A DNA stretch of 64,000 nucleotides from Paramyrothecium sp. XJ0827 (lineage: Eukaryota; Ascomycota; Sordariomycetes; Hypocreales; Stachybotryaceae), in the NCBI GenBank assembly GCA_020881915.1, contig JAJFPB010000001.1, positions 3,472,001-3,536,000 on the forward strand, in the 5' to 3' direction. The notes under the pieces are model-generated. The model was not told where the DNA came from, ran no database searches, and saw only the letters and a program-made list of their open reading frames with translations. A program made the translations under genes and the position numbers. This document shows, piece by piece, positions 58,616 through 63,915 of the stretch. Within the stretch, counting starts at the first letter, position 1; each line of letters starts with the position of its first letter.

Positions 58616-60288
58616 ATGTCTGCTATGCCAGGTCCCGTCTATGGCCTCGAGGTCCCCCCCGGTGAGATCCTCATCCCCGCCGCCATGGAATTCCCTGCTT
58701 CCGTAAGTCTGACTCTCTGAATCATTGCGCTCGTTGATTCTTGCTATTGCGCTCCTACGTGTCCCACTGGTGCTTGCAAAGCGCGGCGCGCCATAGCTTT
58801 TCTTGCGCTGACCACATCGCTTCAGTTCCGCATCACCATGGCTGCTGTCGATCCTACCGAGGAGCCCGAGGCCGACGATGAGGGCAACGTCCCCGCCGTT
58901 CCTCGTTCGACTCTGCGCATCGTTAAGCGCGCCTTCCCTGGCCTCGATGATGATGAGGACGACGAGATCGATGAGGAGTACATGAAGGCTTTGCTCGAGG
59001 GTGATGATGATGAGGACGACGAGGACGAGGACGAGGCCAACGGTGGCCCCAGCGACCCTGCCAAGTCCAAGAAGCAGAAGCAGGCCGCCGCTATCAAGGC
59101 CCTGCTCGAGGCCACCCAGGGCGACGACGAGGATGATGAGGATGAGGAGATGGAGGATGCTAAGCCCAACGGTGTCAAGTCTGCCAAGGGCAAGGGCAAG
59201 GCTAAGGCCACCGAGGAGGAAGAGGACGAGGATGATGAAGAGGATGAGGATGATGAGGACGACTCTGATGACGAGGAGGGCGGTGACCTCGAGAACTTTG
59301 TCATCTGCACACTCGATACCGAGAGGGTAAGGGAAATGATCAACCGGCTCTCCCTTGACAAGCTGCTAACAACATGTTTTCTAGAACTACCAGCAGCCTC
59401 TTGACATCACTGTCAACCACGGCGAGAAGGTCTTTTTCGTCGTTACTGGCTCCCACACCGTCTACCTCACCGGCAACTACATCATGGATGATGAGGACGA
59501 GGAAGACAGCGATGAGGATGACTACGACTTTGACCCCAGGGACATGGAGTATGCCCTTGGTGAGGATGAGGAGGATGAGAGCGATGACCTTGATGACCTC
59601 GAGGATCCCCGTGTGACTGAGATTGAGAGCGACGACGAGGCCCCCAAGCTGGTCCCGACCAAGAAGGGCAAGAACAAGCGCCCTGCTGAGGACGCCGCTG
59701 AGAGCCTCGACGCCTTGATCGCCAAGTCTGACGACTCCAAGGCCTCCAAGAAGCAGCAGAAGAAGCTCAAGAACAACAAGGGCGAGGCTGTTGCCGCCGA
59801 GGAAGCGAAGAAGGACGCCAAGAAGGTCCAGTTTGCCAAGAACCTCGAGCAAGGCCCTACCGGCTCCACAAAGCAGGCCGGCAAGGCTGCCGGCGGCGTC
59901 AAGGTTGTTCAGGGTGTCACCATTGACGACCGAACTGTCGGCACCGGCCGCACGGTCAAGAACGGCGATACCGTCGGCGTCCGATACATTGGCAAGCTGG
60001 CCAACGGCCAGCAGTTTGATGGTGAGTTGTCCTAGCATACCCAAGTCTTTGGTGTTGGAAAGTGACTGACTTTTTCGTGTAGCCAACAAGAAGGGCAAGC
60101 CTTTCTCCTTCAAGGTCGGCAAGGGTCAGGTGATCAAGGGTTGGGACGTCGGTATCGCTGGCATGGCCATCGGTGGTGAGCGACGCTTGACGATCCCTGC
60201 TCACCTTGCCTACGGCTCCAAGGGCATGCCTGGCATTCCCGCCAACAGCCAATTGACCTTCGATGTCAAGCTGCTGGAGATCAAGTGA
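58616..60288 (+). CDS. fpr4: Nucleolar FKBP-type prolyl isomerase, FPR3/FPR4-like
   Basis: Four exons (58616-58702, 58826-59326, 59385-60021, 60083-60288) give 476 residues. The N-terminus ([20 protein letters not shown]) begins a nucleoplasmin-like domain, which continues after intron 1 and is interrupted by long Asp/Glu runs. After a second acidic stretch comes a Lys-rich linker ([11 protein letters not shown]). The last 110 residues are a complete FKBP domain: [36 protein letters not shown], and [22 protein letters not shown]. This is the plan of yeast Fpr3 and Fpr4, nucleolar histone chaperones and prolyl isomerases that act on histone tails. The acidic parts bind histones in the family. 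All three introns join in phase. Histone action here is inferred from the family. Confidence 0.94.
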
Positions 60289-61213: not shown

Positions 61214-63915
61214 ATGGGATCGGGTTTACTTCGAAAGCGCAGTTACCCTCCACTCGACATCGCACCACCGACCTCCATCGATACCACCGGGTCCCCTTCG
61301 CTGCAGGTGACACCGGAGCACGAAATACAGGGAGACCCTAATGTTTTGAGGCTCTGCCACGCCAGTTCCAAAGTGTGGTCTGATATTCGAGGCGCGATCA
61401 AGGCAATTGGGCGGAAGAGCCACAGCAGCGGTGCGTTTTGCCCGCCATGGCCATGTCCCTTCTTCCGGCTGATCCAATGCAGTTTCAGAAGGATCAACCA
61501 TCATTGAATGGGGCCCCATCACCCATTCCGCACCGGTACAGAGAGATCTGGATCATCATGCGGTCTCAAAGCGGCCGGAGGAGCCTCGATCTCGTGGCAT
61601 TACCCCGAGGGAGTTTGCTAGGAGACTTTGCCTCGCAAATTTGGGACGGAAATCAAGCACTGCTGTGGTCGTGCAGGCCTCGTCCCCAACAGCAAAGGGC
61701 TCACACAAAGCTCCGGCTAGGTCACAATCCACACCATCGAGCGACGCAAGCAGTGGCGTATCCTCGAAGTACAACAGTAAGGTGTCAACTATAGGGAACG
61801 GCTCTACCACAAAAACCTCTCTCGACTCACGTTCAGCAACTTCCATCAAGGGCACCATGAGAAAACGGACCAATGGTCGAATTCCTCGAACTCGTTCAAG
61901 TCCAGAAGGCTGCGCACTTGATACCATTGTCGAATCTGGCATTGACCAGGTCCAGCCTACAATCTTGACTGTCGAGAATGCCGCCGCTGCCAAAATTTAT
62001 TTCGAGACTCACTTCAATGACTTGATTCATATGCGAGCAGCGCGTGATACTCGCCGGCATTACATGGAATCCCAACTTTACTTTAGCCCACACCTTGACA
62101 CAACCCAAAAAAATGCCATTCGCTCGTCTTTCTTTCACGAAGAGACATGGCATTTAAGAGAAATGCGTGTGTTGAGATGCCAAAGCCAATCAGCATGCAT
62201 GCACGGAACAGAAGGCCCATACGCAAACAAATATGAACCACTCAAGATTCTGGGCAAAGGGAGCTTTGGTGTTGTAAGACTGGTTCGTGAACGTTCCACT
62301 CCACAGAGCCACTCGCCACCGCAAGTCTTCGCCATGAAGGTCATTCGGAAATCTGACATGCTTCGGAGCAGTCAGGAAGGCCATCTTCGAGCGGAGAGAG
62401 ACTTCCTTGTGGCATCCGAAGGCTCAGACTGGTATATACACCTACTGCGCGAGCATGTTGCTTTTGCTAATTTCTTTGCTTTCAGGATTGTGCCGCTGGT
62501 AGCAAGCTTCCAAGACGCGTCAAACCTCTATCTCGTCATGGAGTATATGCCAGGTGGGGACTTCCTTGGGCTTCTCATCCGAGAGAACATTCTCGACGAA
62601 GCAGTCGCCCGTTTCTACATAGCGGAGATGGTCCTCGGGGTTGAGGAGGCACATCGCCTGAAGTGTGTTCATCGTGATATCAAGCCTGACAACTTTCTCG
62701 TATCTGCTTCAGGGCACCTGAAATTGTCCGACTTTGGGCTCGCCTTCGATGGTCACTGGTCTCACGATGCCTCGTACTACAATTGCCATCGCTACTCGTT
62801 GTTACGCAAATTAGGTATCAATGTGAGCGGCGACGATGTTGATCAAAAGGAGGGACGCAACATCCACACACAACTCAAATGGGCTCAGACGCTCATGAGC
62901 GGTTTGGAACGGCACGAAAGGCGAGATGCGTCGAGCGAAGACGACCTTTGTGATCTTGTGGAGTGGAGGAATCAATGTAGCAATCGGGCAGCTGCGAACT
63001 CCGTGGTCGGTACCAGTCAGTACATGGCTCCGGAAGTGGTGCAAGGGCTGAAATACGACGGAAGATGCGATTAGTAGAGCATAGGCATCATCCTGTATGA
63101 GTGTCTCTATGGGCATACTCCTTTTCTTTCAGAGGCTGGGCGTCAACAGACGAAACAGAACATCTTGGTGAGTCGTCTTAGCTACTTATTAATTTCAACA
63201 TCAAGCTGACCCGAAGCAGGAACACAGAACACGCTTCTACTTCCCTCAGCATCCAACGTCTAGCGAGAAGTGCAAAGATCTGATATATCGCCTTATTCAA
63301 AATATGGAGGATCGTCTATGCTCCAGGCGATACCAACTGAAAGATCAAGGTCAACTCGACGGAGGTCGACAGGTTGAGCTCCTCGGGCCGTTTGTCTTCC
63401 CAGATGATGGCGAAGACATCAAAGCCCATCGTTGGTTCAAAGGCGTTCCATGGAATCATCTGCATGCCCTCAGCCCACCTTTCATACCTCATATTCACGG
63501 AGCTGAGGATACGCACTATTTTGACGAATCTGAACCTATCAAGGATTGGTCTGAGAGCTCGCCATCGTTCGCAGGTCCTACCGCGGCTGACGTCAGGGTC
63601 GTTCTGAGTGATTACCGTGCAGAAGTGCAGGATATTGCAATCAGACTGGTGGCTACTCCATTAGATTCGGCCAAGCTTCGCGGACTCGATCAACAAATCG
63701 ATTCGACAGTATCCCTGACAACCGAAGAACGCGAAGTGCTCAAGCACTTTATAAGATTTTATGGCAAGAAAGAGCGGAAACGTCCACGAGATCGGCTGCT
63801 CAGGGATGGAAGCACGAAGCAATTGGTGTTGGACATTCGAAAGAAAACGGCATTTTTAGGATACACATGGCGCAGAATGACACCATTAGGAGGGGCAGCC
63901 CCTGGTTGGGCATGA
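61214..63915 (+). pseudogene. NDR/AGC-type protein kinase interrupted by tandem TAG TAG
   Basis: Four exons (61214-61430, 61483-62431, 62486-63167, 63220-63915) would encode about 847 codons. The parts are a disordered N-terminus, an NDR-type N-terminal regulatory helix region (about 205-300), and a kinase domain with KILGKGSFGVV (about 329), VFAMKVI, HRDIKPDNFLV (about 450), DFG, a long NDR-style insert and GTSQYMAPE. The C-terminal extension ends in the hydrophobic motif FLGYTWRR. Catalytic residues are intact. However, at 63072-63077 the codons between GRCD and SIGIILYECLYG are TAG TAG, where related kinases have two Trp (TGG TGG). The frame is otherwise open on both sides. The product would stop at residue 584, losing the last third of the kinase fold. 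Such kinases regulate polarity and cell division; this copy is not a clear match to COT-1 or DBF-2. I call it a pseudogene or a strain-specific null, unless the bases are wrong. Confidence 0.82.
63072..63077 (+). other. Tandem in-frame stop codons in the kinase gene
   Basis: TAG TAG replaces the expected TGG TGG in the DWWS motif of kinase subdomain IX. Each is one G-to-A change, equal to C-to-T in a CpA context on the other strand, the mutation type made by repeat-induced point mutation. Confidence 0.85.

Follow-up and report, generated by a model that had tools for sequence, protein, structure and literature searches.

The window, by which we mean the whole stretch of 64,000 nucleotides analysed, contains a PUK1/STK-21-like NDR-type kinase gene (61214..63915, + strand) of 847 codons, in which 2 adjacent TAG codons are located in frame at 63072-63077. 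The gene model was placed by hand from the splice signals and checked for phase, and its 3 introns of 52, 54, and 52 nt all follow the GT...AG rule. Exon 1 (61214..61430, +) starts with the ATG at 61214 and ends at the donor GTGCGT, and exon 2 (61483..62431, +) has an alternative acceptor 6 nt further on (61488) that also keeps the frame. The catalytic core, with the HRDIKPDN, DFG, and APE motifs and both stops, is encoded by exon 3 (62486..63167, +), whereas exon 4 (63220..63915, +) encodes the end of the C-lobe and a C-terminal extension with the hydrophobic motif FLGYTW (63853-63870), and closes with TGA at 63913-63915. The first internal TAG (63072..63074, +) is codon 585 and the second (63075..63077, +) is codon 586; the adenosines that would have to be edited are 63073 and 63076, positions 1754 and 1757 of the coding sequence. 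The stops are flanked by KYDGRCD upstream and SIGIILYECLYGHTPF downstream, and occupy the DWW motif of the kinase.

A sequence-only reading of this DNA had described the pair as lying in an NDR-type kinase gene that was otherwise intact, including the catalytic residues and the hydrophobic motif, and the gene model bears this out. Codons 585 and 586 are the sole internal stops between the ATG and the TGA. The part upstream of the stops matched the Pkinase domain (PF00069, E 4.4e-35), and the top sequence matches among PDB structures were the NDR kinases STK38 and CBK1. With HRD, DFG, APE, and the C-terminal hydrophobic motif, the protein has the features of an NDR/AGC-type kinase.

The upstream neighbor is a gene for an FKBP-type prolyl isomerase with NPL and FKBP_C domains (59385..60285, +, in 2 pieces, 59385-60032 and 60070-60285). 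In 3 public protein models of 1049 to 1269 amino acids, from Paramyrothecium (P0001), Stachybotrys (P0002), and Fusarium longipes (P0103), the NPL/FKBP_C and kinase domains were fused, which points to the same neighbor gene in all three.

The position of the stops within the kinase is more than would be expected by chance. With codons 585 and 586 counted as TGG, 75 single transitions could create a stop in the coding sequence, and of the 2775 pairs of such transitions only 4 strike both tryptophans of the single Trp-Trp in the protein, and only 1 yields TAG TAG. Elsewhere in the genome, 11 other kinase loci were taken from 57 matches that include the PUK1-like gene itself. A DWW motif was found in 5 of these loci and was encoded by TGG TGG in all 5, while 5 others showed D-x-W with a single TGG and one (L047) had no motif. 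Among the former is an NDR-type paralog (L045), presumably COT1/CBK1, which is likewise an AGC kinase with DWWS, but in which the 2 tryptophans are encoded by TGG TGG. The 5 intact motifs indicate that TAG is not generally read as tryptophan in this genome, and a reassignment of the codon was ruled out on these grounds. A scan of the window for same-frame open stretches of at least 120 amino acids parted only by TAG gave no other pair; the PUK1 pair itself falls below this limit because of the third intron.

Among the matches listed, the best protein match was to Paramyrothecium foliicola, a member of the Stachybotryaceae in the Hypocreales (86% identical across 68% of the query), followed by Stachybotrys chartarum (61% identical across 98% of the query). 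In a rapid maximum-likelihood tree with 121 rows, from which the region of the stops was left out, the kinase fell among Hypocreales, with P. foliicola as its sister (SH-aLRT 100) and 2 Stachybotrys sequences next (SH-aLRT 97), inside the group of Sordariomycete kinases with disturbed models at the DWW motif. The genome thus belongs to neither Fusarium nor Neurospora. From these relationships, the gene is most likely the ortholog of PUK1/STK-21. The best 120 of 1479 clusters contained neither F. graminearum PUK1 nor Neurospora crassa STK-21 by name, and the F. culmorum cluster P0040 (54 members) was the nearest stand-in among the listed proteins.

Fungal A-to-I mRNA editing was first found in the PUK1 gene (PMC4817773). 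In F. graminearum, PUK1 (FGRRES_01058) has tandem UAG UAG codons in the kinase domain that are changed to UGG UGG; at least 1 of the stops was changed in more than 99% of the perithecial reads, and both in 90% of these (PMC4817773). An allele with uncorrectable stops fails to complement the mutant, which grows and infects plants normally but forms abnormal ascospores that are not released (PMC4817773). The gene studied here shares with F. graminearum PUK1 the tandem UAG UAG in place of Trp-Trp in the kinase domain and the misled annotation. The likeness to PUK1 and the DWWS motif proposed in the sequence-only reading are supported. It differs in belonging to a member of the Stachybotryaceae and in the coding-sequence positions of the 2 adenosines, 1754 and 1757 as compared to 1831 and 1834. 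Codons 585 and 586 are presumably the equivalents of UA1831G and UA1834G; the expression, the editing level, and the mutant phenotype are known only for Fusarium. The PUK1 orthologs STK-21 (NCU03242) of N. crassa and FVEG_01191 of F. verticillioides are also edited in perithecia, but at one codon, since they contain a single stop, the first in N. crassa (TAG TGG) and the second in F. verticillioides (TGG TAG), whereas Magnaporthe oryzae and Claviceps paspali have G at both positions (TGG TGG) (PMC4817773).

Automated annotation conceals such stops as false introns, which in F. graminearum proved to be exons (PMC4817773). A conserved premature UAG similarly misleads the gene prediction of CHE1 in Fusarium, giving false introns or truncated models, but CHE1 is a zinc-finger gene with a single stop that is edited at low level in hyphae, and is reported only for closely related Fusarium (PMC11169179).

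To see whether relatives bear such marks, as the sequence-only reading had proposed in the form of an ortholog alignment, we aligned the listed protein clusters (the best 120 of 1479 with the window gene as query) to the gene and inferred the codons from the protein models. The cluster orders were assigned from the genus names. One or both tryptophans were missing in 76 of these 120 clusters and both were present in 44. The missing class comprised 65 of the 67 Hypocreales among the best 120, including 19/19 Fusarium and 12/12 Claviceps clusters, together with 7/7 Xylariales, 2/4 Sordariales, 1/2 Amphisphaeriales, and 1 Glomerellales; the last is Verticillium, whose place on the tree is unsure because of its very long branch (1.39). 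Both tryptophans were present in the best-120 clusters from Leotiomycetes (24/24), Magnaporthales (6/6), Diaporthales (4/4), Coniochaetales (1/1), and unnamed taxa (4/4), as well as in 2/4 Sordariales, 1/2 Amphisphaeriales, and 2/67 Hypocreales.

The disturbance is concentrated around the stops. Among the Hypocreales of the best 120 clusters, the gap rate was 0.96 at codon 585 and 0.93 at codon 586, 0.91 to 0.94 at the 6 codons just before 585, and 0.3 to 0.7 further downstream to about codon 616, as would result from false introns of differing length. The background in the same clusters had a median of 0.015 at codons 330 to 560 and 0.03 at codons 620 to 760, and at 8 other Trp codons that were checked, out of 12, the gap rate was 0.01 to 0.07.

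Since TAG ends in AG, it may pose as a false splice acceptor, the splice phase being invisible in the protein. Among the best 120 clusters, 22 models, all from Hypocreales, restart exactly at the Ser that follows codon 586, which fits a TAG at that codon. Another 13 restart exactly at the second Trp (7 Xylariales, 3 Hypocreales, 2 of the 4 Sordariales, and 1 of the 2 Amphisphaeriales), a single-codon scar at the first codon that fits TAG TGG, and 3 models (one Hirsutella and two Ophiocordyceps) continue past GRCDW before they skip, which fits TGG TAG. Of the 76 models with a missing tryptophan, the remaining 38 skip a longer stretch or are truncated, and the affected codon is not readable from them. 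The P. foliicola model P0001 ends exactly at GRCD, directly before the first stop, as would be expected if codon 585 were a stop in this species too. Taken together, the gene models of the relatives suggest a very ancient retention of stops at this place, and a faulty annotation of PUK1 in almost every Hypocreales cluster of the sample.

The only Hypocreales clusters with both tryptophans among the best 120 were Clonostachys solani (P0015) and Geosmithia morbida (P0106), so the stops are not indispensable. These 2 clusters group together (SH-aLRT 99) on long branches, and the stops may have been lost in that line. There is also a tension within Claviceps, in that 12/12 of the other clusters among the best 120 skip the site, whereas TGG TGG is given for C. 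paspali (PMC4817773). When the clusters were labeled as having both tryptophans or as skipping, a minimum of 5 changes of label was required on the 121-row tree, a count by which gain and loss are indistinguishable.

The sequence-only reading had raised a very recent loss of the gene or light repeat-induced point mutation (RIP). A recent null allele would have arisen through 2 nonsense mutations, whether caused by RIP or not, while the gene was under no selection in the strain. As it stands in the DNA, the gene does code for a shortened kinase, the 2 changes are of the CpA to TpA type when read on the minus strand, and a gene for a RID-type cytosine methyltransferase with 2 open catalytic stretches was found (L034, C9:3048500-3055500). 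However, the rest of the 847-codon frame is intact, and the kinase gene lacks the signature of RIP, in which C-to-T changes at CpA are numerous, TpA is elevated, and the composite index is positive. The composite index was -0.89 in the coding sequence, -0.63 in the 500 nt around the site, and -0.65 in the window, and TpA/ApT was 0.47 in the coding sequence. Of 48 RIP-type sites that could become a stop, only those at codons 585 and 586 carry one. When 921 bases of the kinase gene were used to search the genome DNA (51.8 Mb in 15 contigs), the gene itself was the one match, with no duplicate. A recent event is also at odds with the disturbance of the same position in the models of nearly all Hypocreales among the best 120 of 1479 clusters.

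Nor is there excess divergence downstream of the stops. The mean identity to other Hypocreales upstream of the stops was 0.710 for the window gene and 0.735 for S. chartarum (64 clusters listed), and downstream 0.534 and 0.538, respectively (63 clusters listed). Conservation of the protein downstream is thus not relaxed relative to Stachybotrys; since a stop may also be present in the S. chartarum gene, the comparison speaks of equal rather than absolute constraint. A recent null allele or RIP product was rejected on the conservation in relatives' models, the RIP index, and the single copy, and we consider that only a slight chance is left for it.

The RID-type gene was also considered as a second shared editing site, as FgRID of F. 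graminearum is listed among the genes that need correction of a premature stop. No TAG was present inside its 2 catalytic open stretches, and the one in-frame TAG noted precedes the first Met. RID was rejected as a second shared site, and not every F. graminearum site appears to be shared with this genome.

A frame conserved past the stop would equally be expected if readthrough or a suppressor tRNA placed an amino acid at the stops. Tandem stops multiply the inefficiency of readthrough, and the 5 TGG TGG motifs in the other kinases give no sign of such decoding. In F. graminearum the tandem stops of PUK1 are resolved by editing (PMC4817773), and we regard readthrough as very improbable.

Least credible are the 2 explanations in which there are no stops in the message or in the DNA. 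If the stops lay within a genuine intron, as is supposed in many public models from relatives, the upstream GT at 63036 and the TAG ending at 63077 could serve as its borders. Such an intron would be 42 nt, shorter than the 3 others in the gene (52 to 54 nt), and would delete the GRCD motif and both tryptophans, which the kinase fold requires. The models of near relatives differ in where they put the gap, and comparable stretches in F. graminearum are exons misannotated as introns (PMC4817773). We rejected the intron on its length and on the loss of the GRCD motif. An error of sequencing or assembly is just as implausible, as the independent P. foliicola model P0001 stops at the same codon and the TAG pair reproduces the arrangement published for PUK1.

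Editing of the 2 adenosines, which the sequence-only reading had put forward as the route to a full protein, is supported as likely. A hairpin was predicted at 63060..63093 (+), with a GAUGC/GCAUC stem at 63064-63068 and 63085-63089 and outer pairs at 63060-63062 and 63091-63093. Both adenosines lie in its 16-nt loop (63069-63084) in the minimum-energy fold of 61-nt windows, the length used in published work. Compared to shuffled sequences, the hairpin is predicted to be only modestly more stable, with z values of -2.08 for 34 nt, -1.88 for 44 nt, and -1.37 and -1.16 for 61 nt; in a 102-nt window z was +0.24, with the hairpin itself retained. The sampled probability of being in a loop was 0.60 for the first adenosine and 1.00 for the second, values matched by 14 and by 0, respectively, of the 73 other UA sites in the coding sequence. 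At positions -2 to +4 the first adenosine has U, U, G, U, A, and G, in agreement with 5 of 6 published preferences, and the second has G, U, G, A, G, and C, in agreement with 3 of 6. Both have U at -1 and a purine at +1, which is true of any UAG. More than 62% of the F. graminearum editing sites are in such hairpin loops, and the neighboring bases outweigh the structure (PMC9600606).

The editing enzyme is Tad2-Tad3 acting together with Ame1 (PMC11087585, PMC11156358). The genome also appears to encode this machinery, with candidate genes for Tad2, for Tad3, and for an Ame1 that carries the Met-Val specific to editing. Three DUF726 loci were found. In the gene at C8:2186795-2187879 (L032, C8:2184500-2190000), Met and Val stand at -31 and -30 relative to the catalytic Ser, and Glu, Arg, Asp, and His at +15, +17, +58, and +98. 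These spacings are those of M500-V501, E546, R548, D589, and H629 around S531 in F. graminearum Ame1, in which the pair is ancestrally Lys-Asn and Met-Val is needed for editing (PMC11087585). Neither of the other 2 DUF726 loci had Met-Val at the pair; the residues were Ser-Leu and Ala-Ser without gaps, or Leu-Asp and Ser-Ser when aligned by eye on the DNPW motif. Each of the 2 matches within the AME1-like gene contains one TAA, which lies between open stretches that can be joined in frame by candidate GT-AG introns, and the gene is probably intact. The Tad2-like gene (C9:2136470-2136910) contains HAE and PCVMC, and the Tad3-like gene (C7:5669718) the pseudo-active HCV in place of HAE, together with PCVEC. 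With NCBIfam TadA scores of 62.3 and 28.6 bits, respectively, neither gene reaches the cut-off of 150, and the names are given by motif. The best match to the deaminase model, a locus at C1, was rejected as Tad2; we take it to be dCMP-deaminase-like.

A MAT1-1 type locus (L031, C9:2586000-2595999) was identified by a MAT alpha box (PF04769, 140.5 bits against a cut-off of 28.1) and MAT1-1-2 (PF17043). It also contains an intron-split HMG-box gene, presumably MAT1-1-3, which adjoins a gene for an I/LWEQ-domain protein that we take to be SLA2. No MAT1-2-1 gene was identified within this stretch. A sexual morph has been described for the Stachybotryaceae, and is given as "undetermined" in the descriptions of 4 species and one genus (PMC11905103). 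The passages of PMC6583245 mention neither "sexual morph" nor "teleomorph".

We conclude that the locus very probably contains a conserved, editing-dependent double stop in the PUK1/STK-21 ortholog of a fungus in the Stachybotryaceae, with editing argued from Fusarium. The UAG pair, located in subdomain IX of the kinase, would lock the genomic PUK1. Any mRNA present in vegetative cells would be translated only as far as GRCD, into a kinase that is presumably inactive for want of the core of the C-lobe and the regulatory tail. In the sexual phase, Ame1 would redirect the tRNA deaminase Tad2-Tad3 (PMC11087585, PMC11156358) to both adenosines in the hairpin loop, which would be deaminated. The edited UAG UAG would then be read as Trp-Trp to give the full kinase, as in Fusarium, which may act in the formation or release of ascospores.

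The case from which mRNA editing in fungi became known is thereby extended to the Stachybotryaceae, and within the accessible open-licence literature no report of such editing in the family was found. The kind of system is already known; what would be new is the apparent order-wide depth of conservation of the PUK1 stops. This depth bears on whether editing sites are the repair of accidents or a kept switch, and the label changes needed on the 121-row tree, no more than 5, contrast with the turnover of individual editing sites that has been stressed previously (PMC5381528). The scars left in annotations also offer a cheap means of finding conserved editing-dependent stops in other genes. A bolder proposal, which we advance tentatively and rate slightly below an even chance, is that the double stop is an old and selectively kept lock rather than a neutral accident. 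In view of the single-codon scars in Xylariales, Amphisphaeriales, Sordariales, and 3 Hypocreales, the age of the first UAG may be close to that of the editing machinery in the Sordariomycetes, and the second may have been added in the Hypocreales, with both retained in lineages for which mainly asexual morphs are known. If this were the case, an intact PUK1 frame around TAG TAG, together with the Met-Val of AME1 and an intact MAT locus, would be a genomic marker of hidden sex, and the same set would signal working mRNA editing in fungi without a known sexual stage.
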